Translations under genes and position numbers: made by a program
Notes under the pieces: model-generated
Database searches by the model: none
Seen by the model: the letters and a program-made list of their open reading frames with translations, nothing else
What the model was told of the DNA's origin: nothing
Shown: positions 34,814 to 53,016 of the stretch, piece by piece
Position numbering within the stretch: position 1 is the first letter of the stretch
Layout: each line of letters starts with the position of its first letter
From: a virus
Virus record (IMG/VR): IMGVR_UViG_3300037068_000078
Span: 1 to 64,000 of that record
DNA length: 64,000 bases
Reading direction: 5' to 3' (one strand)

Positions 34814-35155
34814 TTTAGAGAGAACCTCCTGTGTGCATATAAAGTCTACCATGTATTGAAGGCGGATTTTCCAATACGAAATCAATACGTCGATTCGCTA
34901 GGGGGGCCAGTACCTTAGCGCGTGCGTATTGGAATATTGATTATTTCTCCGTGCGGGCGCGCGCACGTACGCACTGGTGCGCCTGCGTAGAAATCCAATA
35001 CATTCGGGTTCCGTTAGGGCCGCGCCTGCCCCCCGTGCTATGATTGCCCCCGGCGAGTTCCCTAGCAGCAGCAAAGCACTCTCCAGCGGCCCACGTCACA
35101 CAGCCCCGGTGGCGTGGGCCGTCTACACACCGGGGCAGCACACGGGGCCTACCAC
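34814..35155. promoter_or_regulatory. Divergent control region with repeated CCAATAC sites
   Basis: This 342-bp stretch separates the minus-strand helicase operon from the plus-strand replication operon and shows no convincing gene. CCAATAC or its complement GTATTGG occurs at 34871-34877, 34926-34932 and 34995-35001. Near matches are GTATTGA at 34853-34859 and TCAATAC at 34882-34888. Sites flank both operons' starts and look like operators for a regulator not identified here, or iterons of an origin. Confidence 0.6.
35036..35044 (+). promoter_or_regulatory. Candidate extended -10 promoter for the replication operon
   Basis: TGCTATGAT is a full extended -10 (TGn plus TATGAT) about 110 bp before the first plus-strand gene. 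No good -35 hexamer is seen, as is usual with extended -10 promoters. The CCAATAC site at 34995-35001 lies about 40 bp upstream. Confidence 0.5.
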
Positions 35156-36728: not shown

Positions 36729-36799
36729 CACTTCTTCGCAGCGGCGCGGCTACCCGGTCCCCAGCGCGGGGCCGGGTAGTTCCTTAAACGGGGTAGGTG

Positions 36800-38476: not shown

Positions 38477-38850
38477 AGACGTGGGAGATAATGATCCCGG
38501 GACTGCGTTTCAGCGTGCTGCTGTACAGGGGCGACGACTCGCAGCCATCCATCGATGAATGCTGGGAGGCGATGCAGCGCACCGGCTTGATTAGTGGCAC
38601 GAAGGAGAGTTGGACGTACATGCTCGCGGAGCTAGGGCCACGGCGCTGCGACTATGGGTTCGGTAAGTTACCACAGGGGCGAGGCTCTGCCGTTGAGCGA
38701 GCCAGAGAGGAACTGAGACGTGAAGCGCAAGCCATCATCGACCGCCAAGCCAAGGAGCAAGAGCAAGTCCGAGAAGTCCAAGACGGACAGAAGCGAGCCT
38801 ATCGTCACAGGCGAAGAACTACGCTTCCGGATAGTGATCACCTACTATGA
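38473..38850 (+). CDS. Hypothetical protein after primase
   Basis: 125 residues, ATGA overlap with the primase stop. The first 80 residues are well-behaved (WEIMIPGLRFSVLLYRGDD, then ECWEAMQRTGLISGTKESW); the end is a charged helix and a less protein-like RTTLPDSDHLL tail. It overlaps the next ORF by 131 bp in another frame. Not recognised. Confidence 0.6.
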   Translation: MKTWEIMIPGLRFSVLLYRGDDSQPSIDECWEAMQRTGLISGTKESWTYMLAELGPRRCDYGFGKLPQGRGSAVERAREELRREAQAIIDRQAKEQEQVREVQDGQKRAYRHRRRTTLPDSDHLL

Positions 38851-38956
38851 CGGACGCAGGTACCGCACTCGCATCGAGGCGCTGCGCGCACTCAAGACTT
38901 TCAAGTTGAAGCCAGGACAGCTGGCGACGGTCATAGATGGAGGTACAGGTGAGTAG
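38720..38956 (+). CDS. Small overlapping hypothetical protein
   Basis: GTG start, 78 residues; AGAGGAACTGAGAC precedes it. A basic N-terminus (KRKPSSTAKPRSKSKSEKSK) is followed by a natural-looking segment (ELRFRIVITYYDGRRYRTRI, then KLKPGQLATVIDGG). The latter part is not covered by the previous gene, so a real product, perhaps from a later start, is likely. It overlaps the Nudix start by 8 bp. Confidence 0.45.
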   Translation: MKRKPSSTAKPRSKSKSEKSKTDRSEPIVTGEELRFRIVITYYDGRRYRTRIEALRALKTFKLKPGQLATVIDGGTGE

Positions 38957-39407
38957 ACTGATTATGGTGGCAGCGTTCGCGCTGTGCAACGAGGAGGTTC
39001 TTCTCGTGCGAAAGGAGAAGCCGAAGTGGCAGAGCGGCTTGCTGAACGGCGTGGGCGGCAAGGCAGAAGTACACGAGACGCCTCTTGATGCAATGTGCAG
39101 GGAGTTCTTGGAGGAGACCAACATCGAAGTCTCAGCCGATAGGTGGAACCACTTCGCGTCGGAGTTCGGGCGCGGCTACGTGGTGCACTTCTTCCGGTGT
39201 CGTCTCTCGACGCTGGTGCGTGACGTCACTCCCACGCAGAACGACGCGGGCGAGAAACTGTACTGGTACAACGCGCGCATGCTGGACAGGCAGTCGATCA
39301 TCGGCAACCTGCAGTGGCTCATCCCGCTGGCGGTGGACCCGCGCGGCTTCAACCGTCCAGTGATCGTGGACGCGATCGAGGACATCAAGGAGAACCCCAC
39401 GTGGTGA
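38949..39407 (+). CDS. Nudix hydrolase
   Basis: 152 residues from GTG 38949, which has GGAGGT 4 bp upstream (an ATG at 38937 adds 4 residues). The Nudix box is GGKAEVHETP through REFLEETNI, with the usual Gly near the end replaced by Asn. Nudix enzymes hydrolyse nucleoside diphosphates linked to another moiety. In this operon a role in nucleotide-pool clean-up is plausible; the substrate is unknown. Confidence 0.88.
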   Translation: MSRLIMVAAFALCNEEVLLVRKEKPKWQSGLLNGVGGKAEVHETPLDAMCREFLEETNIEVSADRWNHFASEFGRGYVVHFFRCRLSTLVRDVTPTQNDAGEKLYWYNARMLDRQSIIGNLQWLIPLAVDPRGFNRPVIVDAIEDIKENPTW

Positions 39408-39877
39408 TAGACGAACGGTTGGTGCGCTTGGGCGCGCAGGGTGGCTGGATCGCGGTGGACCTCGACGGTACCGCGCTGGTCTACGACAAGTGGGTGGCGT
39501 GGAACGCGTTCGGCGAGCCAATCTGGCCCATGATCGAGCGCATCAAGGCATGGCGCGCAGCTGGCATCGAGGTGCGCTGGATGACGGCCCGCGTGTTCCC
39601 GTTCATCCCCAAGGTCAACGAGGGCGCGTGGTCCATTCAGCAAAAGTGCCGCATGACCGACCGCATGTGGACCATCGGCGAGATGATCACGGCCATACAG
39701 GCGCACACCGAGCCGTTCGTCGGCGAGCGACTGCCGTGCACGTGCGCCAAGGACGTGGACATGATCGAGCAGTGGGACGACCGCGCCGTGCAGGTAGTGG
39801 CGAACACTGGGCAGACGCTGGCGCAAGGTTGGGAGGCAGAGCGCGAGGCGCTGCACGGGAAGGTGTTCAAGTCATGA
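39401..39877 (+). CDS. HAD-like phosphatase
   Basis: 158 residues from GTG 39401 with AAGGAG 6 bp upstream (GTG 39404 also possible). AVDLDGTALVYD near residue 17 is HAD motif I. Motif II lies in RWMTARVF near 52 and a late acidic motif in DMIEQWDDRAVQVV near 122. This resembles phage phosphatase-like proteins that act on nucleotides or polynucleotide ends. The start overlaps the Nudix stop, and ATGA joins it to the helicase gene. Confidence 0.75.
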   Translation: MVIDERLVRLGAQGGWIAVDLDGTALVYDKWVAWNAFGEPIWPMIERIKAWRAAGIEVRWMTARVFPFIPKVNEGAWSIQQKCRMTDRMWTIGEMITAIQAHTEPFVGERLPCTCAKDVDMIEQWDDRAVQVVANTGQTLAQGWEAEREALHGKVFKS

Positions 39878-41394
39878 AGCCCACCATCATCCTCGGCCCG
39901 CCCGGTACGGGCAAGACTACATCGATCCTCAACCTCGTCGAGGAGTCGATGGCGCGTGGCACCGCGCCGGATCAGATCGCACTCGTCACGTTCACCAAGC
40001 GCGGGGCGGACGAGGGCAAGACGCGTGCAAAGAAGAAGTTCAACCTGGAGGATCGCCAGCTGCCGTTCTTCAGCACGCTCCATGCCATGTGCTATCGCCA
40101 GTTGGGGCTCAAGCGGAGCGACCTGCTCGCAGGGCAGGCGTTCAATGAGTTCGCCCAGTACGCAGGCGTGCGCGTCACCGGCCGAGCGTGGTCCGACGAC
40201 GGCATTCTCACAGGCTTCGAGGCGGGCGACCGCATACTGTTCATGGAGAACCTGTCACGCATACGGCAGGTGTCGCTCCGCGAGCAGTACGAGTGCGGCA
40301 ACGACGACCTCGACTGGAACGAGGTGCAGCGCGTGAGCAAGGCGCTGGCTGCGTTCAAGCATCGCAAGGGCCTGCTCGACTTCACGGACATGCTCATCGA
40401 GTTCGTGCGCATGGGTAATGGCCTGCCGATAGAGGAGCTATACGTCGATGAGTCGCAAGATCTATCTAGTCTCCAGTGGGCCGTCGTCGATCTCCTCGCT
40501 GCCAACTGCAAGCGGGTCACGGTGGCTGGCGATGATGACCAAGCTATCTACAGATGGGCGGGTGCCGACGTCGAGCACCTCATCAACATGGACGGAGACG
40601 TGCGAGTGCTCGGGCAGAGCTACCGAGTGCCTACGGCTGTGCAGGCATTGGCGAACGAAGTGATCGGCGGTGTCGCGCACAGGCGATCCAAGGAGTGGGC
40701 CGCGCGCAAGGCCAAGGGGCGCGTGGACTACGCCATGGCGTTCTCTGACGTCGGCGTGGATAGCTCTGACGTGCTGGTGCTGGCGCGCAATACCTACGTG
40801 CTGAAGGAGCAGGTGATGCCAGCGCTGAAACAGGAGGGCATCATCTACGAGGTAGGTGGCAAGTCCTCGGTGGACGTAAAGATCATGCGGGCAGTCACCT
40901 CGTGGGAGATGCTGCGCGCGGGCGACGCCGTCTCGCTGGAGGAGGCCCGCGTGATGTACGGGTACATAAGCAGCAGCACCGGCGTCAAGCGTGGCTTCAA
41001 GGAGCTGAAGAACTACGGCGACGACGGCGACGCGCCCATCACCATGCGCGACTTAGTCAACACGGGCGGCCTGCTCGTGGACCCGGTGACCATCTGGCAC
41101 GAGGCGTTGGACCGCCTGCCGAAGGAAGAGATGAGCTACATGCTGGCGGCCCGCCGCAGGGGCGAAAAGCTGAAGGGTACGCGCCCGCGCGTGCGGCTCT
41201 CCACCATCCACTCTGCCAAGGGAGCAGAGGCGGAACACGTGGTCTTGATGAAGGAGATTGCCGCACGCACTCACTACGAGATGCAGCAGCAGCCGGACGA
41301 CGAGCGTCGCGTGTGGTACGTGGGGGCCACGCGCGCGAAGGAGAGACTGACCATCGTAAACTCAGAGACACCGAGGGAGTGCCCCTGGCTATGA
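39874..41394 (+). CDS. UvrD/Rep-type superfamily 1 DNA helicase
   Basis: 506 residues from ATG 39874. All SF1A motifs can be read: I ILGPPGTGKTTSI; Ia LVTFTKRGADEGKTR; II LYVDESQDLS; III VAGDDDQAIYRWAGA; IV VLGQSYRVP; V LSTIHSAKGAEAEHVVL; VI VWYVGATRAKERLTI. It is shorter than UvrD (720), with reduced 1B/2B domains, like the Dda-size phage helicases. It probably unwinds DNA during replication or recombination. Confidence 0.92.
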   Translation: MKPTIILGPPGTGKTTSILNLVEESMARGTAPDQIALVTFTKRGADEGKTRAKKKFNLEDRQLPFFSTLHAMCYRQLGLKRSDLLAGQAFNEFAQYAGVRVTGRAWSDDGILTGFEAGDRILFMENLSRIRQVSLREQYECGNDDLDWNEVQRVSKALAAFKHRKGLLDFTDMLIEFVRMGNGLPIEELYVDESQDLSSLQWAVVDLLAANCKRVTVAGDDDQAIYRWAGADVEHLINMDGDVRVLGQSYRVPTAVQALANEVIGGVAHRRSKEWAARKAKGRVDYAMAFSDVGVDSSDVLVLARNTYVLKEQVMPALKQEGIIYEVGGKSSVDVKIMRAVTSWEMLRAGDAVSLEEARVMYGYISSSTGVKRGFKELKNYGDDGDAPITMRDLVNTGGLLVDPVTIWHEALDRLPKEEMSYMLAARRRGEKLKGTRPRVRLSTIHSAKGAEAEHVVLMKEIAARTHYEMQQQPDDERRVWYVGATRAKERLTIVNSETPRECPWL

Positions 41395-41609
41395 GCGAGC
41401 TAACACCAGAGCAGAAGGCGGCGATCATTGTGGCGCGTGCGGCAGTCCTCAACACGCGGGTCGCTGCCCTGCAGGCAGAGGCGGAGACACAAAGGTTTGA
41501 GGGCCGGTTCGTAACGGTCAGCAGTGCAGACTTCATTCGATTGATCAACGAGAGCGGCTGCATGGACGCAGACGTTCGCGCGTTGTTAATGACAGGGAGG
41601 TGGGTGTGA
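41391..41609 (+). CDS. Small hypothetical protein
   Basis: 72 residues, ATGA overlap with the helicase stop. A helical N-terminal half (TPEQKAAIIVARAAVLNTRV) precedes VTVSSADFIRLINESG. Not recognised. Confidence 0.6.
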   Translation: MSELTPEQKAAIIVARAAVLNTRVAALQAEAETQRFEGRFVTVSSADFIRLINESGCMDADVRALLMTGRWV

Positions 41610-41875
41610 GCAGAACACCAGAGAGCGTGATTATCGTACAATGGCACGACGTCGAGACGGATGCGCCGCCGGAGAAGAAGCTGCTGATGGTGACCGGCGA
41701 CAGCGGCTACGTCAACAACAAGGATTTCCTGTGCCTCGCGTACTACGACGAGCAGTATCGTCCACGACTGGGCGGCGAGATTCGTTGGCAGTCTGTTACC
41801 AATGACTCGCTCTCTGACTGCGGTTGGTATCCGAAGCGATGGGCTCATCCCATCAATCTGGAGAACGTGCCATGA
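41606..41875 (+). CDS. DUF551-like small protein
   Basis: 89 residues from GTG 41606, overlapping the previous stop. VQWHDVETDAPPEKKLLMVT at the N-terminus and the C-terminal WYPKRWAHPI resemble the small phage family DUF551, whose function is not known. The resemblance is moderate. Confidence 0.55.
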   Translation: MSRTPESVIIVQWHDVETDAPPEKKLLMVTGDSGYVNNKDFLCLAYYDEQYRPRLGGEIRWQSVTNDSLSDCGWYPKRWAHPINLENVP

Positions 41876-42126
41876 ACAATGACCACTTCTGGCGCGTCTG
41901 CCGCGAGATTGCAGACATGCGACACGACGAGGTGTACGACCTGCCTGCTCAAGCGCTCAACGACATGAACGTGCCGCACGACGACCCGTTCGGCATTCCA
42001 ACGGTGGAGGACAAGCTGCGACTCATAAAGCAGTACGCATGTATCTATGCGCACGGCGACATGTTCGACTGCCGCGTTTCACACGACCCACACAAGTACA
42101 CCTTTGAGAGGAAGAGACCATCATGA
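41872..42126 (+). CDS. Small hypothetical protein
   Basis: 84 residues, ATG 41872 overlapping the previous stop, rich in charged residues (FWRVCREIADMRHDEVYDL, then FGIPTVEDKLRLIKQYA). Not recognised; part of a run of ATGA-linked small genes leading to the exonuclease. Confidence 0.6.
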   Translation: MNNDHFWRVCREIADMRHDEVYDLPAQALNDMNVPHDDPFGIPTVEDKLRLIKQYACIYAHGDMFDCRVSHDPHKYTFERKRPS

Positions 42127-42659
42127 TGAACGTAATGCTAGACCTCGAGACGTGGGGCACAAAGCCGGGCAGCGCCATTCGCAGCATCGGTGCTGTCACG
42201 TTCGACCCATTCGGCGACGGGACGGTCGACGAGTTCTACGCCAACATCAGCGACGAGTCGTGCGCTGCGGCCAATCTCACGAAGGACCCGAGCACCATCG
42301 CATGGTGGGCGAGGCAGTCCGAAGCAGCACAGAAGTCTCTGCTCAAGGACCAGCAACCGATCGAGAAGGTCGTGCGCGACTTTCGCCAGTGGTTCATCGC
42401 GAACAAAGGTTTGTGGGTGTGGTCGCAGGGCAGCAACTTCGACGTCGTGTTGTGGGAGGCTGCACACGAGCGGGTCAACGTCGTCGTCCCGTGGAAGTTC
42501 TGGGATGCTCGCGACACCCGTACGGCGTACGAGATCGGCAGGCTGAACACCCGCACGATCAAGCGCGCTGGCACCTACCACAACGCGCTGGACGACGCCA
42601 AGCATCAGGCGAAGTGCGTGCAGCTGGCGTACAAGCGTATCTCTGTGTCGATGGTTTAG
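42123..42659 (+). CDS. DEDDh 3'-5' exonuclease (T4 DexA-like)
   Basis: 178 residues. The exonuclease motifs are MLDLETWGTKPGS (D-x-E) at the start, WSQGSNFDVVLWEAA near 97, and YHNALDDAKHQAK near 153 (the DEDDh His and Asp). A central DPSTIAWWARQS is also found in DexA-type phage exonucleases. It degrades single-stranded DNA or RNA from the 3' end. It may support nucleotide recycling. Confidence 0.88.
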   Translation: MMNVMLDLETWGTKPGSAIRSIGAVTFDPFGDGTVDEFYANISDESCAAANLTKDPSTIAWWARQSEAAQKSLLKDQQPIEKVVRDFRQWFIANKGLWVWSQGSNFDVVLWEAAHERVNVVVPWKFWDARDTRTAYEIGRLNTRTIKRAGTYHNALDDAKHQAKCVQLAYKRISVSMV

Positions 42660-42709
42660 ATAACGAGTTTCAACCAAGGGTAGCCCCCAAAAAGAGGAGA
42701 ATAAGGGAA

Positions 42710-43189
42710 ATGTTTACGGAAGAGCTGAAACAACTGCTTGAGAAAGCCATCAAGCACGGAAACCGTGAAGCCAGAACTAGGATTGTGGTTCTGTCTGAGC
42801 ATGCTGGTGTCAGTGTGGTTTCGTATATCGAGCAAGAAGCTCAGCTAGAAGAAAAACAACAGCGATCTCCCGTGCAACACGCACCGCGTGAAAAGCTAGC
42901 AAAATTTCTGCAAGAGATCGAAGACACTGACTGGGATGGGGCCGGAGCTGAGACTCCGCCTGAGGAAGTGTTAGGCTCATTACAGCGGATGCGAGACAAT
43001 CATGACACATACGAAGAACTTTCAGATGGACAAAAGAGATTTGTCTCGCTGTTGGAGAACTTGTTTGACGCGCGTATGGCGTTTGAAGATGTTGACCGCG
43101 ACATGCTGTTCCCTTCAGGATTCCCAAGATATCGGAACAGCGCACGCAAAATGAAAGCGCTGGCAAAAGCAAACGGATGGAAGAAATGA
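42710..43189 (+). CDS. Hypothetical protein of foreign codon usage
   Basis: 159 residues from ATG 42710, with a CCCCCAAAAAGAGGAGAATAAG leader (first 20 bases quoted in part: CCCCAAAAAGAGGAGAATA). The codons use many A/T third bases (GAA, AAA, CAA, TCT, GTT) unlike neighbouring genes. The sequence (MFTEELKQLLEKAIKHGNRE, then FLQEIEDTDWDGAGAETPP) is acidic and helical. It looks like a recent acquisition at the front of the modification cluster. Function unknown. Confidence 0.65.
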   Translation: MFTEELKQLLEKAIKHGNREARTRIVVLSEHAGVSVVSYIEQEAQLEEKQQRSPVQHAPREKLAKFLQEIEDTDWDGAGAETPPEEVLGSLQRMRDNHDTYEELSDGQKRFVSLLENLFDARMAFEDVDRDMLFPSGFPRYRNSARKMKALAKANGWKK

Positions 43190-44136
43190 AGTCCGGCATC
43201 CAGCGCTTCTTCGCCTACGCACGCGCCCGCCACGAGATCACCCTGCGGCGGGCGCTGGGGCTACCGCGTCCGTGGACCAAGGACAGCATCCTTGACACGT
43301 ACCGCTTCACGTGCGTGTTCCGCGAGCAGGACAAGACAACCAAGTGGTTCCGGCAGAACGTGCGTGACCCCATGCGCAATGCACAGTCAGTGCTGCTAGC
43401 AACGGTGGTGTTCCGCATGCTCAATCGCATCGAGGTGGGCGAGGCCATCTTTCATGCCGAGTACAAGAACGGCGGCACGGCGTGGGATGCCTTCCTCGAG
43501 AGCCGCGACGTGCGCCACCTGCAGCGCGCCATCAAGCGAGCCATCCCGGACGGTCCCTACGTCACGGGCGGGTACATCATCACGTCTCCCCCCGGCTGCC
43601 CGAAGTTGGAGGGCATGATGAAGGTGATCAAGTCCTTTGAGCGGGGGGAGGAAGAGTGGGAGGGGCTTGGCGCTGGCATAATCGGCACGATGAATTGGGA
43701 CGGCGAGGAGGGGGCAGCAGAGTACATGCTGCACAATCGCGGCGATGTCACGCTCGAGAGTTGCTGGCGCTGGCTGCGTCGCTTCAAGTGGTTCGGTGAC
43801 TTCCACTCGTACGAGATCGTGACGGACCTGCGTCACACGCGACTGCTCGACATGGCACCTGACATCAACACTTGGGCCAATCCCGGCCCCGGTGCAAATC
43901 GCGGGGCGAACCGCGTGTACGGCCGTGACAAGGACACGCGCAATAGCAAGGAGAAGCTGAACGCGGAGATGCATGAACTTCTTGGTCATTCACTTGATAG
44001 CAAGTTGTGGCCGCAACGACCAGTCAATGAATGGCCAAGATGGGAGATGCGAGACGTAGAGCACACGCTCTGCGAGTTCGACAAGTACGAGCGCGTGCGG
44101 CTGGGCGAGGGGCGTCCTCGCGGAGTCTACAGGTGA
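43186..44136 (+). CDS. aGPT-pyrophosphorylase-like thymine hypermodification enzyme
   Basis: 316 residues from ATG 43186 (ATG 43177 also possible). DTYRFTCVFREQDKTTKWF near residue 30 and a C-terminal DVEHTLCEFDKYERVRLGEG near 295 are the marks of the alpha-glutamyl/putrescinyl-thymine pyrophosphorylase and 5-hmdU-kinase helical-domain superfamily; PGPGANRGANRV near 246 also fits. In phages with hypermodified thymidine such proteins displace pyrophosphate from 5-pyrophosphomethyl-dU in DNA with an amino acid or polyamine. No P-loop is fused here; a kinase would have to be encoded elsewhere. Confidence 0.75.
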   Translation: MKSGIQRFFAYARARHEITLRRALGLPRPWTKDSILDTYRFTCVFREQDKTTKWFRQNVRDPMRNAQSVLLATVVFRMLNRIEVGEAIFHAEYKNGGTAWDAFLESRDVRHLQRAIKRAIPDGPYVTGGYIITSPPGCPKLEGMMKVIKSFERGEEEWEGLGAGIIGTMNWDGEEGAAEYMLHNRGDVTLESCWRWLRRFKWFGDFHSYEIVTDLRHTRLLDMAPDINTWANPGPGANRGANRVYGRDKDTRNSKEKLNAEMHELLGHSLDSKLWPQRPVNEWPRWEMRDVEHTLCEFDKYERVRLGEGRPRGVYR

Positions 44137-44137
44137 C

Positions 44138-44683
44138 ATGGCACTGACTGATGAAGAGAAAGAGAAGTTCCGGGCAGCGGTGACCAGCGGCGAATACTCC
44201 ATGTCGCAGATCGCCAGGATGTTCAACATGGTCTCAGTCAACGCGGCGATAGGGAGGGCGCACCGCATGGGTATCTCAAACGGCAGGGCACCGCTGAACA
44301 ATAACAAGCGCCGTTTACCCGAGGGCTCGGGTCTCGAGCTCATAAAGAAGATCGGGGCTGGCATACCGCGCAGGCCGCGCGGTCGTCCACCGGGCAGCAT
44401 GAGACTGACGTTCACGCCACCGCTCGGTGATGTCACGCCACCCAAGCTGAAGTTGATAGCAGAGTGGGACAAGAAGAAGTTTCCGCAGCCGAACGCCGCG
44501 TGCTTCGACTGCATCAACCTGTTCACGCAGTGCAAGTGGCCCATTCGTGATGAGCCAGTTCAGTTCTGCGGTGAGTTAAAGCGTGAAGCGAAACCGGGTG
44601 AGAAGTTGAACGATGTGCCGTATTGTGATAGGCACTCCAAGATGGCTAAACAGGAACCGTACAAGAAGGGAGAGCAGTGGTGA
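44138..44683 (+). CDS. GcrA-like transcription regulator
   Basis: 181 residues. The N-terminal HTH (SMSQIARMFNMVSVNAAIGR, then AHRMGIS) and the C-terminal Cys/His-containing CKWPIRDEPVQFCGE and VPYCDRHSKMA follow the pattern of alphaproteobacterial GcrA. GcrA binds sigma70 and acts at promoters with methylated GANTC sites. A phage copy could redirect host transcription or sense methylation state; that is inference. It is embedded among DNA modification genes. Confidence 0.8.
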   Translation: MALTDEEKEKFRAAVTSGEYSMSQIARMFNMVSVNAAIGRAHRMGISNGRAPLNNNKRRLPEGSGLELIKKIGAGIPRRPRGRPPGSMRLTFTPPLGDVTPPKLKLIAEWDKKKFPQPNAACFDCINLFTQCKWPIRDEPVQFCGELKREAKPGEKLNDVPYCDRHSKMAKQEPYKKGEQW

Positions 44684-45465
44684 GAGTTTATATCCCAAGC
44701 ATGGGCCGGGCGGGTGACATCGGCGCGAAGGTGATGACGTGCAACTACATTGACCGTGCGACCTACGTGGTGCCCTCGGCGGAGGTCAAGCGATATCAGA
44801 ACTCGCTCGGCATGCGCAAGGGCACGTACGAAGTACTTGCCTGCGACGAGGTCGGCATCGCGCAGACGCGGCGCTGGATCGGTGAGCAGGCCGCGTCGCG
44901 CAAGGAGGCCTCCTTCTGCATGATGGACGACGACCTGCGCTTTGCCGTGCGCGAGGGCAAGGATGGCATCAAGCTGCGCAATGCCGAGCGCCCGGACGTG
45001 GCAGCGATGCTGGAGTGGATTGCGGGCAGCTTAGGCAAGTACGCGCACGTCAGCGTATCGGCGCGTGACAAGAACCACACGAACACAGACGCGCATGACG
45101 TCAACTGTCGCACCCTGCGCGTGCTGGCCTACCAGACCAAGAAGTTCTTGGCGATGGAGCACGGGCGGGTGGCCGTGATGGAGGACTTCGACGTCAACCT
45201 GCAGCTGTTGCGCAGCGGCGAACAGAACATCTGCTCGTTCGTGTTCGCCAGCGACCAGCGCGAGACGGGATCCAAGGGTGGGTGCAGCAGCTACCGCACG
45301 TTGGAACTGCACAACGCAGCTGCGCATCGCATCGTGGAGCTTCACGCGCCCTTCGCCAAGCTGCGTGAGAAGGAGACCAAGGCCAAGGGCGTGTTGAGCA
45401 AGCGCATGGAGGTCACTATCTTTTGGAAGAAAGCGTTCGCATCGAGCCAGAGGAGAGCCGCATGA
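44680..45465 (+). CDS. TAGT-like DNA glycosyltransferase
   Basis: 261 residues from GTG 44680 (GTG 44677 also possible). The N-terminal VRVYIPSMGRAGDIGAKV, a RATYVVPSAEVKRYQNSLG region and the metal-binding DDD in FCMMDDDLRFAVR near residue 85 match the TET/JBP-associated glycosyltransferase (GT-A fold) pattern. A second acidic motif, VMEDFDVNLQL, lies near 170. These enzymes are predicted to glycosylate hydroxymethylated bases in DNA. Its cluster position supports that role. Confidence 0.72.
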   Translation: MRVYIPSMGRAGDIGAKVMTCNYIDRATYVVPSAEVKRYQNSLGMRKGTYEVLACDEVGIAQTRRWIGEQAASRKEASFCMMDDDLRFAVREGKDGIKLRNAERPDVAAMLEWIAGSLGKYAHVSVSARDKNHTNTDAHDVNCRTLRVLAYQTKKFLAMEHGRVAVMEDFDVNLQLLRSGEQNICSFVFASDQRETGSKGGCSSYRTLELHNAAAHRIVELHAPFAKLREKETKAKGVLSKRMEVTIFWKKAFASSQRRAA

Positions 45466-45710
45466 ATAACCCGTACGTTTGGGCCGCGCTCGCTGTTGCC
45501 GTTACACTGTGTGCACTTGGTGCAGCGTGGCGGATGGCGCACCGCGCGGAGCGTCACAGCCGCGATGAGTACGACCGGTTGATGCGCCGCGTGGGCACGG
45601 ACGGCGCGTACTACTACGGCGAAAGCGACACGGTCTATGACGAGTCCGGCATGTCGGCGGGCTTCGGCGTGGGACCACTGATCAAGAAGGATGGGAAAGA
45701 TGGCGTATAA
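45462..45710 (+). CDS. Small membrane protein
   Basis: 82 residues from ATG 45462 (AGAGGAGAGCCGC upstream; ATGA overlap with the glycosyltransferase stop). One N-terminal transmembrane helix (VWAALAVAVTLCALGAAW) is followed by a charged soluble part (EYDRLMRRVGTDGAYYYGES). Not recognised. Confidence 0.6.
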   Translation: MNNPYVWAALAVAVTLCALGAAWRMAHRAERHSRDEYDRLMRRVGTDGAYYYGESDTVYDESGMSAGFGVGPLIKKDGKDGV

Positions 45711-46674
45711 GCAGGAGCCGCCGTTCGCGGTGCAGATCGAGCTCGCAGAGGGGTGCAACCTGCGCTGCTCCTTCTGCGGGCTGAATGGCATACGCGGCAA
45801 GGAGAACGACTTCAAGGTGATGACGGACAAGGTGCTGCAGTCCGCCATCAAGCAAATGCTGGCGTTGAACTGGAACCCGCGCATTGAGTTCGCAATGCAC
45901 GGCGAGCCCACCATGCATCCAGGCTTCGTGGACATGGTGAAGATCGTGCGCTGGCTCGCGCCCAAGTTCCACATCATGATGACCAGCAACGGCGGCGGAC
46001 TGCTGAAGAAGCCGGGGCCGGTGCAGCTGATTAAGGACCTGTTCGACGGTGGGCTCAACTGCCTAGCGCTGGACGACTACCAGGACGCGAAGCTGGTGCC
46101 GAAGATCCGCGCGGCACTGGGGAACAACCTGGGCGAGCACGTGGACGCGCAGGTGTACGAATATCCGGAGGACAAACGTGGCAACCCGCACGCAAGACAT
46201 CATCGACGCTCACTCGTCTTCATTCAAGCGATTGATGCAGCAACGACAGGAACTCACTCGCATCTCAACAATCATGCTGGAGCGGGAGCTCCTCCTAATG
46301 ATGACGGCGCTGGGAAGAGATGCGCTAAGCCATTTCGCGAACTTTCAATACGATGGGACGGTAACGTGGCGGTCTGCTGCAATGACTGGCGAGGTGTTTA
46401 CAAATGCGGAAATGTTGTTTCGGACGGTCTTGACACCGTCTGGAATGGTGATCCAATGCGCGCTGCCAGAGTTAAGCTCTACCACGGAGAGCGAGACTTT
46501 GGTCCATGCAACGGCTGCGATGCTAAGTCGGATCGCGTCGGACTTCTTCCAGATAAATTCGGCCGTGAGGATCTACCGAGAGTTTCAGCCGCCGTCAAGC
46601 GAGCAATCGGAGCCGCGCTTGAAGGTGATAGTTATACAAAAGCTGTACTGAGACCATGGGAGGTGGGGAAGTGA
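45700..46674 (+). CDS. Radical SAM enzyme with SPASM-like domain
   Basis: 324 residues. EGCNLRCSFCGLNGIRG near residue 15 holds the CxxxCxxC radical SAM cluster motif; AMHGEPTMHPGF near 62 and MTSNGG near 92 are core motifs. The C-terminus has extra Cys (CAKPF, AVCCNDWRG, KCGN, GPCNGC) of a SPASM-type auxiliary Fe-S domain. Such enzymes modify hypermodified-thymine side chains in some phages. Codon usage changes near 46178, GC-rich before and relaxed after, so the gene may be chimeric. Confidence 0.85.
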   Translation: MAYKQEPPFAVQIELAEGCNLRCSFCGLNGIRGKENDFKVMTDKVLQSAIKQMLALNWNPRIEFAMHGEPTMHPGFVDMVKIVRWLAPKFHIMMTSNGGGLLKKPGPVQLIKDLFDGGLNCLALDDYQDAKLVPKIRAALGNNLGEHVDAQVYEYPEDKRGNPHARHHRRSLVFIQAIDAATTGTHSHLNNHAGAGAPPNDDGAGKRCAKPFRELSIRWDGNVAVCCNDWRGVYKCGNVVSDGLDTVWNGDPMRAARVKLYHGERDFGPCNGCDAKSDRVGLLPDKFGREDLPRVSAAVKRAIGAALEGDSYTKAVLRPWEVGK

Positions 46675-46883
46675 ATACAGAAGAGAACACAGTTAAGCTG
46701 GTGGGACAGATAGAGAGGCGCACCGACTACATCGCCACCATCAACGGCGTGCTTCATCAGCTGTGGTGCCTCACGGACATGGCCCAGTATCACCAGCGAT
46801 GGGAGTGGCGCAAGGTGCCGTTCTACTCCAACGAGGAGGCATTGAAGATCGGTACGATCGTGGGAGGAGACAAGGCGCTGTGA
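46671..46883 (+). CDS. Small hypothetical protein
   Basis: 70 residues from GTG 46671 with GGGAGGTGGGGAA upstream, overlapping the radical SAM stop. It includes YIATINGVLHQLWCLTDMAQ and WEWRKVPFYSNEEAL. Not recognised; belongs to the modification cluster by tight linkage. Confidence 0.6.
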   Translation: MNTEENTVKLVGQIERRTDYIATINGVLHQLWCLTDMAQYHQRWEWRKVPFYSNEEALKIGTIVGGDKAL

Positions 46884-47356
46884 GGAAGCCCATCATCATC
46901 GGCATGAACAACCCCATCAGCCTTGCGCCCGGTCACGAGCTCTATCCGCTGCCCGATGGCTGCACCGGCAACCGGCTGTGGAAGATGTTGGACGCCAGCA
47001 TGCAGACGCGCGGCAAGGGGCGCGTGAAGATGAAAGCGTACCTCGACGCGTTCGAGCGGCGCAACTTGGTGATCGACAAGGCGTGGAACAAGGTGGCGGC
47101 CCGCGCACGCGCCCACGAGATATCCATCGAGCTCTTCGGTAGCAAGCGCACGGTGGTCCTACTAGGCACGGAGGTAGCAAACGCCTTCGGCCTCCCCCCG
47201 CTCAAGCTTGTTCCGACGATGGTCGGGGGGATTGTATTCCGGCAGGTGCCGCACCCGTCGGGAAGGAACCTCTGGTACAACACGCCGGAGAACATGGTCA
47301 GCGTGGGGAACCTGCTCGCTGACCTATATGAGGAGAGCATTCGTGAAGATGCCTGA
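46880..47356 (+). CDS. Uracil-DNA-glycosylase-fold protein
   Basis: 158 residues from GTG 46880. IIIGMNNPISLAPGHELYPL near the start parallels the UDG superfamily N-terminal motif; TVVLLGTEVANAFGL near 95 is the central strand, and VPHPSGRNLWYN near 130 is the HPSG-like motif that binds DNA. It could remove a base, read a modified base, or act on nucleotides. The usual catalytic Asp of family 1 enzymes is not evident, so activity is uncertain. Confidence 0.65.
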   Translation: MRKPIIIGMNNPISLAPGHELYPLPDGCTGNRLWKMLDASMQTRGKGRVKMKAYLDAFERRNLVIDKAWNKVAARARAHEISIELFGSKRTVVLLGTEVANAFGLPPLKLVPTMVGGIVFRQVPHPSGRNLWYNTPENMVSVGNLLADLYEESIREDA

Positions 47357-47663
47357 GTGTAGTTGCTACGCGGCTGACGCCGTGGCTGCAGAGAACTTGA
47401 ACTACGACGTGGCGTGGGCAGCTGCTCACTCCGCTGAGTTAGCGGCGACGTTGAACGGAATATGTAAGGAGGCGTACCCGTACTACGTCAACACCGTAGT
47501 CGTCATGCTGCTGCGGAGCGTAGCAATACACACCAAGGGCAAGAGGAAGGAGGACGAGCGCTTTTTGGAGATACTGGAGACGCTCGTGGGTGATGTTAAA
47601 ATGCGCGACGACGTATTGAACGCGCTGCTGGAGCGCAACAGAGAGGGAAGAACCAATCAATGA
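47343..47663 (+). CDS. Helical hypothetical protein
   Basis: 106 residues from GTG 47343 with AGGAG 7 bp upstream (ATG 47349 is also possible). It has ECSCYAADAVAAENLNY at the N-terminus and long helices after (YYVNTVVVMLLRSVAIH, then LEILETLVGDVKMRDDVLNA). Not recognised; its stop overlaps the thymidylate synthase-like ATG. Confidence 0.55.
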   Translation: MKMPECSCYAADAVAAENLNYDVAWAAAHSAELAATLNGICKEAYPYYVNTVVVMLLRSVAIHTKGKRKEDERFLEILETLVGDVKMRDDVLNALLERNREGRTNQ

Positions 47664-48739
47664 AAGTCATCAAGGGCCGGAACGTGAATGGGCTTTATGC
47701 CGTGGGCCACGACTACTTGACGTCGTATGGCGAGGAGGGGACGTCGCGCGCGGGGTCGGTGCTGGTATCACCCAAGCCCGTCACCTCGGTGTACCTGCAG
47801 CCGCGCGAGCGCGTGCTGTTCGACGCCGTGCGCAACGCCAACCCGTTCTTCCACATGATGGAGGGGCTGTGGATGCTGGCAGGACGCAGCGACGCCAAGT
47901 TTCTGAACCACTACGTGCGCGACTTCGGCAAGAATTTTGCGGAGGATGGTCTGTACATTCACGGCGCGTATGGTGACAGGTGGCGGAGCGCATTCGGCTT
48001 CGACCAGCTGACTGAGATTGTGGACAAGCTGCGCAAGAACCCGGACGACCGCCAGTGCGTATTGCAGATGTGGGACTCGCGCCCTGGCGCGCAGCACGAC
48101 GCGGGATGCGACGACCTGATGGGCGAGTGGAAGGACCGGCCCTGCAACACGCAGGCGTTCTTCCGCGTGCGCAAGGAGCACACGTTTCGGTTTCGCGGCG
48201 GCGAGTCGACCTACGACGACAAGCTCGACATGACCATCTGCTGCCGCAGCAACGACATCGTGTGGGGTGCCTACGGCGCGAACGCCGTGCACTTCAGCAT
48301 GCTGCAGGAGTACATGGCCGGGCGCATCGGCGTGGATGTCGGCACGCTCTATCAGGTGTCGAACAACTACCACGGTTATACGGCGGTGCTCGACGCGCTG
48401 GGCGACCCCATGCTGCAGGAGAGCGATCTGTACACCAGCGGCGAGGTCCACGCGCTGGACATGGGCACCGACTGGGGCAGGTGGGACGAGGACCTGAAGC
48501 ACTTCATGAAGTGGCACGACGACATTTTGTGGGCTGAGGGCCACGTGTCGTTCGGGACGAGCTTCTTCAACGAGTGGTTCACGCAGGTACCGATGCGCGC
48601 GGCTATTTCCAATTGGTGTCACCGCCGAGGCGACAAGGAGAAAGCGCTCGACTTCGCAAGTCGCATCGCCGCAAGCGACTGGCGCACCGCCTGCACGCAG
48701 TGGCTTCAGCGCAGGTACGACGGGAGCAACGGCAAGTGA
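47660..48739 (+). CDS. Thymidylate synthase / dUMP hydroxymethylase homologue
   Basis: 359 residues. Thymidylate synthase landmarks are FFHMMEGLWMLAG near 60 (folate-binding Glu), DRPCNTQAFFRVR near 160 (catalytic Cys, followed by Asn rather than the His of dTMP synthases), CCRSNDIVWGAYGANAVHFS near 193 (substrate Arg, Asp and the dUMP-selecting Asn). A retained Asn points to dUMP, not dCMP. It could make dTMP or 5-hydroxymethyl-dUMP; the neighbours favour the latter. Confidence 0.85.
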   Translation: MKVIKGRNVNGLYAVGHDYLTSYGEEGTSRAGSVLVSPKPVTSVYLQPRERVLFDAVRNANPFFHMMEGLWMLAGRSDAKFLNHYVRDFGKNFAEDGLYIHGAYGDRWRSAFGFDQLTEIVDKLRKNPDDRQCVLQMWDSRPGAQHDAGCDDLMGEWKDRPCNTQAFFRVRKEHTFRFRGGESTYDDKLDMTICCRSNDIVWGAYGANAVHFSMLQEYMAGRIGVDVGTLYQVSNNYHGYTAVLDALGDPMLQESDLYTSGEVHALDMGTDWGRWDEDLKHFMKWHDDILWAEGHVSFGTSFFNEWFTQVPMRAAISNWCHRRGDKEKALDFASRIAASDWRTACTQWLQRRYDGSNGK

Positions 48740-49350
48740 TCGACGAGATCGAGAGCGACCCGCGCATTGCGGGGCAGATCACGCGATACCACACGTGGCC
48801 GCGCCTGCGCGACCAATCCGTGGGCGAGCACAGCTGGCAGATCACTCGCATCCTGCTGACCGTGTGGCCCGCCTGCCCGCGTCGCATGTTGGTGCACGCC
48901 ACGCTGCACGACGTGGGCGAGATGGCCGGGGACATACCGTACCCTGGCAAGCGCAACGACCCGGTGCTGAAGGACAGAATGGACGCGGCCGAGCGGGCGG
49001 TGCATTACAGAATGACGGAGCGGTGGCGCTTGCCCTCGCCCGCCATCCTGTCTCACTACGAGGAGAAGGTGTTCAAGTGCATCGAGTACATCGAGATGTG
49101 GGAGTACGGCCTGCAGGAGCAGAACCTCGGCAACAAGTACGGCGCGGTCGTCTCACTGCGCATGATCGTGGCGGCCAACGCGTTGATCGACGCGCTGGTG
49201 CCAACGCGCGGTGACCCGGACATTCGTCCGTCGATCCGCAAGTACGTGGACGAGCGCAAGCGGCAGGAGTGGGGAGCAGAGGGCGTGCCCCCGCGCCTGA
49301 GAGCCGAGCAGGCAATCGAGAAGCAACAGGAGGAGCAGAGCAATGGCTAA
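48736..49350 (+). CDS. HD-domain 5'-deoxynucleotidase (YfbR-like)
   Basis: 204 residues from GTG 48736, overlapping the previous stop. SVGEHSWQITRI near residue 30 and HATLHDVGEMAGDIPYPGKR near 55 give the H...HD metal site and the GDIP-P-K motif typical of YfbR-type dNMP phosphatases. It could lower dTMP or other dNMP pools so that a modified nucleotide is used. Position next to the thymidylate synthase-like gene supports that. Confidence 0.82.
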   Translation: MIDEIESDPRIAGQITRYHTWPRLRDQSVGEHSWQITRILLTVWPACPRRMLVHATLHDVGEMAGDIPYPGKRNDPVLKDRMDAAERAVHYRMTERWRLPSPAILSHYEEKVFKCIEYIEMWEYGLQEQNLGNKYGAVVSLRMIVAANALIDALVPTRGDPDIRPSIRKYVDERKRQEWGAEGVPPRLRAEQAIEKQQEEQSNG

Positions 49351-50233
49351 CACGGGAATGGAACACATGAAGCACCTGCAGGCGGTCGTGGATAGCGACG
49401 TCCGCGTGCTGCAGAAGAAGGAGGCGACCTACCAGGGCAGCTGGAAGCGCGCTGGCGGGCGCTCGGCTTGGTTCATGATGCGCCGGAACATGGACCGGCT
49501 CATCGAGATGATGAAGAAGCCCGACGCCGGACACGGCTTCAGCGTCGAGGACCTCGACGATGCCATCCGTCACGCCACAGTGCGCGAGCCCACGAACCAA
49601 GATGTCACGCTTGACGCGTCGATAGTTAAGTACCTGCGCGACAGCTACTTGGCCGAGAACGTGTTCGCCAAGATCCGCGAGAACCCGGATGGCCGCGATG
49701 GCACCGTGCTCGCCTGCCTGCGCGACCTGCGTCGCTACCTCACGCTCATCGAGGCCGAGATGATCTCGCGCGGCGTCGTGAAGAACGAGATGCCAGCAAC
49801 GCTCGATGAGCTGTTGACCAAGCCACTCGTTGTAATGGAGACAGTTGTCACGACTGATCCAGTGCGCGCCCCATGGCAGATCTGCCACGCGCCCATGTCG
49901 CTCGACAGTCCACAGGAGACCGAGTTACTGCAGCACTTCTACTCGCAGCGCACGGAGACCATGTGGCAGCTGGAGCCGTTCGTCGTGAGCGATAACCTAC
50001 CGCGCTCACTAGTGAGCTACTACAATCTATCGGCACACGACAATCGAACGTGGGTGCTGCGCGTGCAGAATGCGCCCGCAGAACTGCGCGACCAGTGGCC
50101 GCGTCTGCAGCCAGAGCTCAACGCCAAGGAGCACGAGGACCACCCGAACCGTTTCATGTACGAGTGGCTAGACGGCCCGCAGAAGTACAGGCTGCGCGAC
50201 AGGTACGTCACGTTCTGGGGGAGGGAGGCGTGA
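49343..50233 (+). CDS. Nmad1/MazG-like nucleotide-modification-associated protein
   Basis: 296 residues. EATYQGSWKRAGGRSAWFMM near residue 27, then RRNMDRLIEMM, resembles the YG-SW-R motif of DUF1599/Nmad1 and related all-alpha pyrophosphohydrolase proteins that accompany base-modification genes. Residues 160-296 are a separate, beta-rich part (PWQICHAPMSLDSPQETEL) that I do not recognise. A pool-sanitising or sensing role is inference. Confidence 0.5.
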   Translation: MANTGMEHMKHLQAVVDSDVRVLQKKEATYQGSWKRAGGRSAWFMMRRNMDRLIEMMKKPDAGHGFSVEDLDDAIRHATVREPTNQDVTLDASIVKYLRDSYLAENVFAKIRENPDGRDGTVLACLRDLRRYLTLIEAEMISRGVVKNEMPATLDELLTKPLVVMETVVTTDPVRAPWQICHAPMSLDSPQETELLQHFYSQRTETMWQLEPFVVSDNLPRSLVSYYNLSAHDNRTWVLRVQNAPAELRDQWPRLQPELNAKEHEDHPNRFMYEWLDGPQKYRLRDRYVTFWGREA

Positions 50234-50505
50234 GCATCACGTACAACCCGGCCACGCTTAGGTTCGGCTGCGACGCGTGCGACGAGGCATTGGTTATAGA
50301 GGAGAGCGCTGGGGGCGGGGCTGACAGGCTGCCTCCCGCGTGGGGCAGAGTATCACTGTCCACTGGAGCAGACCCCAACACGGGATGGTACGAGGCAACA
50401 AGCTCGATCCTGTGCCCCGCATGCGTGATCAAATACAAGAAAAAGGTGATAGGTGAAGGCGACGACAAAAAGCATACGGCCCCGTCGGCAGGTTCTCAAT
50501 CCTAA
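50230..50505 (+). CDS. Small zinc-finger-like protein
   Basis: 91 residues from GTG 50230 after GAGGGAGGC. Cys pairs FGCDACDEAL near 13 and LCPACVIKYK near 65 could bind zinc. It overlaps the DNA polymerase start by 53 bp, with the polymerase in another frame. Not recognised. Confidence 0.6.
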   Translation: MSITYNPATLRFGCDACDEALVIEESAGGGADRLPPAWGRVSLSTGADPNTGWYEATSSILCPACVIKYKKKVIGEGDDKKHTAPSAGSQS

Positions 50506-52549
50506 CCAGATGCCGTTGATCACGCCGAACTCCACGTGGGTTCGGCCGTCGGAACTCCCGGACCTGCGAGGGCTCCGGGAGTTCGCCATTGACACAGAGG
50601 AGAAGGACGATGGACTTGCCAACGATCGCGGCCCCGGTTGGGTGTACGGCGCTGGTCACGTTGCTGGTGTTAGCTGCGCTTGGCGCGAGGGCGACGGCAC
50701 GCTGCGGTCGATCTACGCACCCGTACGCCACCCGGACAGCGACTGCTTCGATCACGACGCTGTACGCAGGTGGCTCAAGGACCACTTCAACTGTGGTGCG
50801 CGGGTCATATTCCAGAACGGGCCGTACGACCTAGGTTGGATCGAGCAGGACTTCGGCGTTAAGGCTCCGGAGCACATCGACGACATCGGCTGCATGGCGG
50901 TGATGATCGACGAGACACATCGCGAGTACAGCCTGGACGCCATCTCGCGGCGACTGGGGCGGCAGGGCAAGAACATGCGCGAGCTCATCGAGGCCGCGCA
51001 CGCCTACGGCTATCCAGCTGCCAAGGTCAAGGAGGCGATCGGCAGGATGCCCGCGCGCTACGTGGGGCCGTATGCAGAACAAGACGCAGTCGAGACGCTG
51101 CTCGGGGCCGAGGACATGCGGCCGGAGTTGGCGGAGCAGGGCTTGCTCAACGCCTACCAGCTGGAGATGGATCTCATCCCGCTGATCCACGCCATGCGCA
51201 AGCGCGGCATTCGCATGGACATGGACCGGCTGTACGCAAACCGCGACAAGCTCTACGAGATGCGCGACGAGACGCTGAAGGAGATACAGCGCAGGTGCGG
51301 TGGCCGCCAGCTGGTGATGGAGGACATCCGCTCGGAGGACTGGCTGCACCGCACGTTCGGCGCGCAGGGTGTCGAGTACCGGGGTGACGATGGCTCCTAT
51401 AACTTCCAAAAGGACTGGATGCGTCAAGGCTACCTGGGACGCTACCAGGACGGCAAGGAGGGCCACTGGCTGCCGCTACTGGTGGCGCGTGCCAAGCAAT
51501 GTCACGATAGCGCCGACAAGTTCATCGATGGCTTCCTCATCAACTTCGCGCACAACGGGCGCATCCATGCCAGCATCAATCAGTTCCTGAACGAGGACGG
51601 TGGCACCCGCACGCACCGCTTCTCCTACTCTGATCCCCCGCTCCAACAGATGCCGAGCCGGGGGGAGATGCTGATAAAGACGTGGCTGTTGACGAAGCAG
51701 ATCGTGGAGATGATCCGCGTGTGCTTCCTGCCGGAGCGTGGTGAGAAATGGTTCAGCCCGGACTACTCGCAGCAGGAGTACCGGCTGATGGTGCACTACG
51801 CTGCGATGGAGGAGTTGACGAAGGCGGACTGGGCCGCGCAGAAATACATCGACGACGTCAACACCGACTTCCACAACATGGTGGTGGAGATGACGGGCTT
51901 GCCGCGCCAGCGCGCCAAGGACGTGAACTTCGCCAAGTCGTACGGCGCTGGCCTGAAGAAGTTCGCGGCCATGACGGGCATGACGCTGGAGGAGTCTGAG
52001 AAGACAATCACGCAGTACGACACCGAGATGCCGTTCATTAAGCAGTTGAACGAGCGCTGCGACAAGGCCGCGCAGCAGCGCGGGTACATCGTGATGCTCG
52101 ACGGCGCACGCATGCACTTCAACACCTGGGAGTGCGCCAAGTGGATCGACTACGACGTCAAGCGCGCGGCGGAGTTCGCGGGCTATAAGCAGAACGACTG
52201 CCACAAGGATGAGGCGCTTGAGCGCACGCGCACACCGGGGCATCCGTGGTTCGGCAAGCCGTTGCGCCGCGCCAACACGCGCAAGGCCATGAACGGCTTG
52301 ATCCAGGGTGGGTCGGCGCGCATGGGCAAGCGCGCGATGCGCGACATGTGGCGCGAGGGCTACGTGCCGCTCGTGCAGATGCATGACGAATTCCCCAACT
52401 CCGTCGCGAAGGAGAAGGATGGCAAGCGCATTGCTGAGATCATGCGGTCTGCCTTCAAGGGGCGCGTGCCGTTCAAGGTGGATGAGGAGTACGGACCCAA
52501 TTGGGGAGAGGCGAAATACAAATGGAAGGAAGTCAAGGCAGCAGCATGA
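50453..52549 (+). CDS. DNA polymerase, family A, with 3'-5' exonuclease
   Basis: 698 residues. Exonuclease motifs: REFAIDTEEKDDG near 42, VIFQNGPYDLGW near 117 and YAEQDAVETL near 205. Polymerase motifs: A FSPDYSQQEYRLM near 440; O-helix QRAKDVNFAKSYGAGL near 485 (Arg, Lys, Phe, Tyr-Gly); C VQMHDEFPNS near 640. No 5' nuclease domain. GTG 50453 has AAAAGGTGAT upstream; ATG 50510 is an alternative. It is the replicative polymerase. Confidence 0.94.
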   Translation: MKATTKSIRPRRQVLNPNQMPLITPNSTWVRPSELPDLRGLREFAIDTEEKDDGLANDRGPGWVYGAGHVAGVSCAWREGDGTLRSIYAPVRHPDSDCFDHDAVRRWLKDHFNCGARVIFQNGPYDLGWIEQDFGVKAPEHIDDIGCMAVMIDETHREYSLDAISRRLGRQGKNMRELIEAAHAYGYPAAKVKEAIGRMPARYVGPYAEQDAVETLLGAEDMRPELAEQGLLNAYQLEMDLIPLIHAMRKRGIRMDMDRLYANRDKLYEMRDETLKEIQRRCGGRQLVMEDIRSEDWLHRTFGAQGVEYRGDDGSYNFQKDWMRQGYLGRYQDGKEGHWLPLLVARAKQCHDSADKFIDGFLINFAHNGRIHASINQFLNEDGGTRTHRFSYSDPPLQQMPSRGEMLIKTWLLTKQIVEMIRVCFLPERGEKWFSPDYSQQEYRLMVHYAAMEELTKADWAAQKYIDDVNTDFHNMVVEMTGLPRQRAKDVNFAKSYGAGLKKFAAMTGMTLEESEKTITQYDTEMPFIKQLNERCDKAAQQRGYIVMLDGARMHFNTWECAKWIDYDVKRAAEFAGYKQNDCHKDEALERTRTPGHPWFGKPLRRANTRKAMNGLIQGGSARMGKRAMRDMWREGYVPLVQMHDEFPNSVAKEKDGKRIAEIMRSAFKGRVPFKVDEEYGPNWGEAKYKWKEVKAAA

Positions 52550-53016
52550 GAAAACTACCGAGCCAAACTGTTCTCTGCACGCTGTTCCGATATGCGCCCA
52601 AGTCCGGTGTGCTCACGCGGTGGGATGGCCGCACCTGCGGCAAGAAGGTGTCGATCAAGAATGCCGACTACTGGGCCACGCGCGTGGTGTGGAAGATGCA
52701 GACAGGCAGCGACCCGCGCGTGGTGGTGCCGCGCGATGGCGACCCGAGCAACCTGCGCTGGTCCAACCTGATGGAAACCAGCCACAGCGGGCACCGGGTG
52801 CGGGGCGCGGCACACAGTACCAGCAAGACCGGCCTGCGGGGCGTGTATAAGGTGGGTGCCCGGACCTACCGGGCTCAGGTGTGGTGGCGGGGCCGCAAGC
52901 TACACTTGGGCACCTTTCCGTCCGGGGTGGCAGCTGTGGCGGCCCGCAAGACGGCCCTGGCGCGACTTATGGCGGGCAAACCGGCTCTCACAGCTGCCAA
53001 GATAAGGTCGCGTTAA
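52546..53016 (+). CDS. HNH-AP2 homing endonuclease-like protein, degenerate active site
   Basis: 156 residues, ATGA overlap with the polymerase stop. The N-terminal part resembles HNH endonucleases (ATRVVWKMQTGSD, then RDGDPSNLRWSNL), but the catalytic His before the Asp-Gly-Asp is replaced (VPRDGDP instead of HIDGD). The C-terminal part is an AP2 DNA-binding domain (SKTGLRGVYKVGARTYRAQV, HLGTFPSGVAAVAA). It is probably an inactivated mobile endonuclease kept as a DNA-binding protein. Confidence 0.75.
   Translation: MRKLPSQTVLCTLFRYAPKSGVLTRWDGRTCGKKVSIKNADYWATRVVWKMQTGSDPRVVVPRDGDPSNLRWSNLMETSHSGHRVRGAAHSTSKTGLRGVYKVGARTYRAQVWWRGRKLHLGTFPSGVAAVAARKTALARLMAGKPALTAAKIRSR

Follow-up and report, generated by a model that had tools for sequence, protein, structure and literature searches.

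Positions 43177-50233 on the plus strand of IMG/VR virus contig IMGVR_UViG_3300037068_000078 hold a gene cassette that probably serves to place a glycosylated thymine derivative in the DNA of the phage itself, in which 5-hydroxymethyldeoxyuridine (5-hmdU) would be glycosylated by a TET-associated glycosyltransferase (TAGT) and the sugar then altered by a radical SAM enzyme (rSAM), with a helical protein of the HMUDK_hel family (HEL) presenting the base. The window that was analysed is 64 kb of this 77,728-bp (77.7 kb) contig. The cassette encodes, in order, HEL, a GcrA-like protein, TAGT, a radical SAM/SPASM enzyme, a UDG-like protein, a thymidylate synthase (TS) homologue, an HD-domain protein and an unassigned protein, followed by a DNA polymerase. 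An earlier note, made from the sequence alone, had placed a thymine hypermodification island at 43186-50233; all of its plus-strand genes were found there, and the profile searches that it proposed matched the HMUDK_hel, TAGT, SPASM/Radical_SAM and thymidylate synthase families (Table 1). The same note expected a substituted or glycosylated thymine. Hypermodification as such is well supported by synteny with M6/PaMx11-type loci, by uracil-type residues in the TS homologue and by HEL, and the glycosylated form is favoured over an amino-substituted one because neither the 77.7-kb contig nor any TAGT relative tested has the kinase or the amino acid transferase (ADDT) of the latter route. A thymidine modification of the glycosyl type is thus probable, and part of the phage thymine is most likely converted to a sugar-bearing base.

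In the proposed pathway the TS homologue would convert dUMP to 5-hydroxymethyl-dUMP, while the HD hydrolase may lower competing dTMP. The phage polymerase would build 5-hmdU into DNA, where HEL, an all-helical protein that is also part of a fused 5-hmdU kinase, would recognise it and present it to a partner enzyme. This partner, in place of the M6-type kinase, would be TAGT, adding a sugar to the 5-hydroxymethyl group, and the BtrN-like rSAM would alter the attached sugar, most likely by hydroxyl oxidation. The predicted hydroxymethylation and glycosylation steps follow from family membership and residues; the presenting role of HEL and the tailoring role of rSAM would be those suggested by gene exchange and nearest relatives.

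The rSAM protein was used to scan viral contigs and identified 30 of them (45-64% identical), most with HEL, TAGT, rSAM, TS and polymerase in succession. The combination, which the earlier note did not recognise, therefore recurs in dozens of viral contigs and is not unique to the window phage, although the GcrA-like gene is mostly absent from these relatives. A single-sequence HEL scan of viral contigs found nothing; a scan with a HEL alignment then gave at least 593 confirmed HEL-encoding stretches, and after classification with our own profiles and reduction at 95% HEL identity 80 non-redundant loci were kept. These comprise 24 loci with TAGT (14 with rSAM), 20 with a methyltransferase (Pfam Methyltransf_23), 14 with kinase and ADDT, 6 with an FkbM methyltransferase and a glycosyltransferase, 5 with GTB2 and rSAM, 4 with kinase and GTB1 (3 with rSAM) and 7 others. 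Only motifs and weak Pfam matches led to the name GT-B-like for GTB1 and GTB2: GTB1 is a putative glycosyltransferase by motifs only, with no Pfam match and negative profile comparisons, and in GTB2 members the glycosyltransferase matches are weak and fall short of the cut-offs. A PDB sequence profile search with the GT-B-like family gave no relative.

Across the 80 loci TAGT never occurs with the kinase (0/24, Fisher 4e-4) and ADDT always does (14/14, Fisher 3e-11), while rSAM is accompanied by a putative glycosyltransferase in 22 of 22 cases (Fisher 8e-9) and by ADDT in none of the 22. The pattern persists when loci are clustered at 70% and 50% identity. A HEL tree of 59 rows needs 13 or more changes of effector class, and its starred branches alone require at least 4-5 changes for TAGT and kinase plus ADDT; the partner enzymes have therefore been exchanged around HEL. 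The closest relatives of the window HEL (58-65% identity) come from loci with kinase, GTB1 and rSAM.

The AlphaFold model of HEL (pLDDT 92.9) had as its best matches among viral structures two proteins annotated as the helical domain of 5-hmdU DNA kinase, from phiRSL1 and phiW-14, together with the 637-aa 5-hmdU kinase of SP10, a larger protein that evidently includes the HEL domain. Against the PDB there was no significant structural match, and a PDB sequence profile search with HEL found no relative; suggestive structural matches (probability 0.4-0.6, E 0.4-0.9) were the phage 5-PmdU glycinyltransferase gp46 (8z2n) and OGG1-type DNA glycosylases, hinting at a glycosylase-like helical fold. 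The family behind the earlier label 'aGPT-pyrophosphorylase-like' is the right one, but the name is outdated, as Pfam now names PF18723 after the helical domain of 5-hmdU DNA kinase, and ADDT forms a family of its own (PF18724). Because HEL is found with kinases, glycosyltransferases and methyltransferases, we infer that it handles 5-hmdU in DNA on behalf of a partner enzyme and is likely a shared 5-hmdU-DNA binding or presenting component. A broader proposal, to which we give slightly less than even credence, is that HEL is a general 5-hmdU-in-DNA module with interchangeable group-transfer enzymes and not a kinase-specific domain or a pyrophosphorylase. Its partners would be kinase plus ADDT for amino acids, TAGT or GT-B-like proteins plus a radical SAM sugar tailor, kinase plus GT-B-like proteins, and SAM methyltransferases, and the window would be the TAGT plus rSAM version, with a radical-remodelled sugar on thymine. 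The gene exchange supports this proposed modular 5-hmdU hub.

Several other HEL locus types were observed. A Methyltransf_23 protein lies directly upstream of HEL (HEL at about 8.0 kb), with neither kinase nor glycosyltransferase, in L062-L068, L105, L113, L128 and others; this type accounts for about a quarter of the non-redundant loci and is a candidate methylated 5-hmdU system. Four close HEL relatives of the window (L026, L040, L050 and L055) encode a 5-hmdU-type kinase together with a GT-B-like protein; in three of the four the window-type rSAM is present as well, and a sugar linked through phosphate is one possibility for these loci. In loci of the L090-L098 type HEL, an FkbM methyltransferase and a glycosyltransferase group 1-like protein stand beside TS, which suggests a methylated sugar.

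The radical SAM/SPASM assignment of the earlier note was confirmed by both Pfam domains. In an alignment of 43 sequences the cysteines C22, C26 and C29 (CX3CX2C) and those of the auxiliary cluster (C211, C229, C273 and C276) are invariant. The best PDB match is BtrN (3e-7), with both domains, the CX3CX2C motif and the four auxiliary-cluster cysteines placed in one alignment. In BtrN, a twitch enzyme, the group oxidised is an alcohol of an aminocyclitol (PMC9012708); the likeness is remote, and the natural substrate of BtrN is a free aminocyclitol. Since this nearest match is alcohol-oxidising, oxidation of a hydroxyl of the attached sugar is, with modest confidence, the most likely reaction of the window enzyme. 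A scan of cellular genome contigs gave no cellular relative of rSAM. Distant BtrN-like relatives (21%) were seen in the cultured Campylobacter phages CP20 and CPt10 (H66 and H67). The constant company of a putative glycosyltransferase suggests the transferred sugar as the rSAM target. It is rather unlikely, if still worth weighing, that glycosylated thymine is made and rSAM acts at another step, either on the 5-hydroxymethyl group (oxidised to formyl, for example) or on a sugar nucleotide that has yet to be transferred. The steps could run in another order and rSAM dehydrogenases such as BtrN oxidise alcohols, both of which would suit such a step, but the HEL loci pair rSAM with three putative glycosyltransferase families that are unrelated to one another, and none has rSAM alone.

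The TAGT protein scores 48.7 bits against a cut-off of 27.5 for PF20691 and matches phrog_842, annotated as 'HMC-alpha-glucosyltransferase'; D84-D85-D86, R65, R130 and D170 are invariant among 43 aligned sequences. The earlier TAGT-like label is borne out by these results, and the protein is predicted to be a 5-hmdU DNA glycosyltransferase. In T6-like phages proteins of the same family have been linked to the glycosylation of DNA bases (PMC13390438); there they serve DNA cytosine glucosylation and act on hydroxymethylcytosine derivatives, whereas the TS homologue of the window has a uracil-type Asn177. An improbable alternative is that the DNA contains 5-hmdU, possibly unmodified further, and that TAGT and rSAM have some other target, for instance a glycan of the host, a sugar nucleotide or a peptide. 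The substrates of the two enzymes are not readable from sequence, and rSAM/SPASM enzymes often act on peptides; however, TAGT lies between HEL and TS in many loci, the same slot is elsewhere filled by kinase plus ADDT, GT-B-like proteins or methyltransferases, and the T6-like association also points to DNA.

The nearest characterised loci are those of M6/YuA-type and PaMx11-type phages (Mesyanzhinovviridae), which have the order HEL-TS-HD-polymerase in common with the window. HEL shares 46% identity with PaMx11_50 and 34% with SN1_020, the corresponding values for the TS homologue are 43% (PaMx11 protein) and 42% (M6-like SN1 protein), the HD protein is homologous to PaMx11_52 and SN1_016, and relatives of the UDG-like protein occur in M6-like phages. 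The modification in M6-like phage DNA derives from 5-hmdU, and the kinase in M6-type phages prepares amino acid attachment. Upstream of the DNA polymerase PaMx11, SN1 and Sonora encode ADDT, enzymes using flavin adenine dinucleotide (FAD) or pyridoxal phosphate (PLP), kinase, HEL and TS, whereas the window has TAGT and a different rSAM. An identity of 96.8% to M6, a phage with hypermodified thymines, has been given for SN1, and the authors list this SN1 cassette (PMC9476957).

Of the components that mark the M6/PaMx11 type, the TS homologue and HMUDK_hel were found in the window and the P-loop 5-hmdU DNA kinase and ADDT were not. The Pfam models of the kinase (PF18748) and ADDT (PF18724) gave no match in the 77.7-kb contig. 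As PF18748 is poor at detecting the PaMx11-type kinase, our own profile (A6) was built from five kinases; it was positive in 7 of 7 control records and in 0 of 19 TAGT-bearing records, the window contig and Brevibacterium phage LuckyBarnes included. ADDT was absent from the window contig and from every TAGT record tested (3/3 positives detected), TAGT was missing from all 18 records that represent the kinase, GT-B-like and methyltransferase types, and homology comparison revealed no PLP or FAD enzyme homologue in the window. An amino-modified thymidine of the M6, ViI or phiW-14 type, in which 5-hmdU is phosphorylated, an amine or amino acid displaces the phosphate and rSAM rearranges the product, is very unlikely here. 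The locus, HEL, TS and an rSAM gene are indeed as in SN1 and M6, and the UDG-like protein is shared, but the M6-like rSAM is a different protein of 480 aa with no similarity detected to that of the window, and window-type rSAM never accompanies ADDT. This route was rejected on the lack of kinase and ADDT in the window contig and TAGT relatives, with positive controls detected.

For the TS homologue 115 phage sequences were aligned to E. coli ThyA. The catalytic Cys146 is present in 115/115 and Asn177 in 114/115, while Trp80 is found in 0/115 and His147 is replaced by Asn in 114/115. Asn177 is the residue that selects uracil, and the best PDB match, a CMP hydroxymethylase, has Asp at this position. 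This pattern fits a dUMP hydroxymethylase, the enzyme expected in M6-like phages, and the protein is predicted to make 5-hmdUMP and not to be a dTMP synthase or a cytosine enzyme, in agreement with the label in the earlier note; the hydroxymethylase-like residues are shared with M6-like phages and PaMx11. That it is an ordinary dTMP synthase in a phage with unmodified DNA, for which the retained Asn177 could be cited, is scarcely credible given the loss of Trp80 and His147 in essentially all relatives, M6-like phages included, and the adjoining HEL and TAGT. The HD nucleotidase label drew weak Pfam matches, under curated cut-offs, and a deoxynucleotidase keeping dTMP low is a possible role.

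Several points weigh against a glycosylated, radical-tailored thymine. In T6-like phages the base on which TAGT acts probably carries glucose already, so that TAGT would supply the second sugar (PMC13390438), and a first transferase could be unrecognised in the window. The likeness of rSAM to BtrN is remote (3e-7), and its NCBIfam matches are weak and spread over many rSAM families. Neither rSAM nor HEL is obligatory: 10 of the 24 TAGT loci have no rSAM, and MW202897 has TAGT and TS without HEL. Part of the loci were found via rSAM, and the Fisher tests ignore shared ancestry. The contigs are metagenomic and may be incomplete; many are 50-99 kb long, and LuckyBarnes is a complete genome.

LuckyBarnes is also the nearest cultured parallel: gp38-41 are annotated as a thymidylate synthase, two glycosyltransferases and a hypothetical protein, and, like the window, the phage combines TS, TAGT and HEL, while its whole genome lacks both the kinase and ADDT. 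It differs in having two TAGTs, no rSAM of the window type and a very diverged HEL (27%); no report of its base chemistry was found in the open literature searched. Sugar-bearing thymine replacements have precedents in the oligosaccharide-substituted thymidine of YerA41 (PMC9023294) and the glucosylated and phosphoglucuronated dihydroxypentyluracil of SP-15 (PMC5977210). These are large phages with other gene sets, for which no HEL-TAGT-rSAM cassette is described in the literature searched. The product class thus has precedents; the window gene set, the interchangeability around HEL and a radical-remodelled sugar on thymine were not found described there.

Table 1. Genes of the cassette and the adjoining polymerase, with window coordinates and supporting matches
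Feature	Position	Strand	Evidence
HEL, HMUDK_hel (PF18723), formerly aGPT-Pplase1	43177..44136	+	Pfam E 1.9e-42; phrog_2396 4e-62
GcrA-like transcription regulator	44138..44683	+	Pfam GcrA 3.7e-13
TAGT, predicted 5-hmdU DNA glycosyltransferase	44677..45465	+	PF20691 1.1e-12; phrog_842 8.8e-36
Radical SAM/twitch (SPASM-family) enzyme, BtrN-like	45691..46674	+	Pfam SPASM 4.5e-12, Radical_SAM 7e-9
UDG-superfamily (TDG/MUG-like) protein	46880..47356	+	phrog_12275 1.3e-16; fold model
TS homologue, predicted dUMP hydroxymethylase	47660..48739	+	Pfam thymidylate synthase 3.2e-18; phrog_5131 1.6e-99
HD-domain hydrolase (weak), possible deoxynucleotidase	48736..49350	+	YfbR-like 6.6e-5, HD_3 4.5e-4, both below cut-off; phrog_6047 6.7e-23
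Conserved protein, family unassigned, beside TS and polymerase	49343..50233	+	relatives in many HEL loci
DNA polymerase, closes syntenic block	50453..52549	+	open reading frame; named by position and relatives at the equivalent place, without a library scan of its own

The UDG fold proposed earlier is supported by an AlphaFold model (46904-47353, pLDDT 91.1), whose best 25 PDB matches in Foldseek are all TDG/MUG glycosylases, mostly at probability 0.97-1.00 and TM about 0.6, with a best E of only 4.5e-3. A PDB sequence profile search with the family found no relative. When read from the GTG at 46880 the protein has a GMNNP motif 1, which is GxN-like with a third residue varying among relatives (N, Q, D, A), and a PHPSG motif 2, of which HPSG is present in 11/13 aligned rows. 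It may act in repair or in quality control, with the removal of wrongly modified bases as one possible task. The GcrA-like regulator is correctly identified, but being absent from most relatives it is probably a passenger that takes no part in the modification chemistry. A profile of the window protein recognised no GcrA in other loci of the set; a GcrA-like reading frame was seen by eye between HEL and the glycosyltransferase in L040. Its presence inside the cassette suggests an alphaproteobacterial host. For the last protein of the cassette the name 'Nmad1/MazG-like' was not confirmed, as no Pfam, PHROG or NCBIfam match was found, and its relatives match only PF04927 weakly, or DUF3310. Many HEL loci have a member of this conserved family (A5) next to TS and polymerase, and its proteins share the stretch DLRRYLxLVEAEM.

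Elsewhere in the window, contractile-tail structural genes (terminase, portal, sheath and baseplate; 1252-23019) are combined with a replication and modification block (35000-53000) that resembles that of the siphoviral Mesyanzhinovviridae. A Nudix-like protein, named by eye only, is encoded at 38937-39407 upstream of a UvrD-like helicase and also in L011 and L012, and could serve nucleotide pools. Scans for promoters, terminators and repeats gave nothing above shuffles or of use.

If the proposal is true, a large and mostly uncultured set of phages, represented by the HEL-encoding stretches found here, decorates 5-hmdU by exchangeable chemistry, and in the branches that have been explored least the thymine receives sugars, radical-modified sugars or methyl groups. 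HEL, now named after a kinase, would gain a general role, and new DNA-modifying enzymes would be on offer. Such phages would be predicted to resist restriction enzymes with T in their site, or to fall to modification-dependent nucleases.

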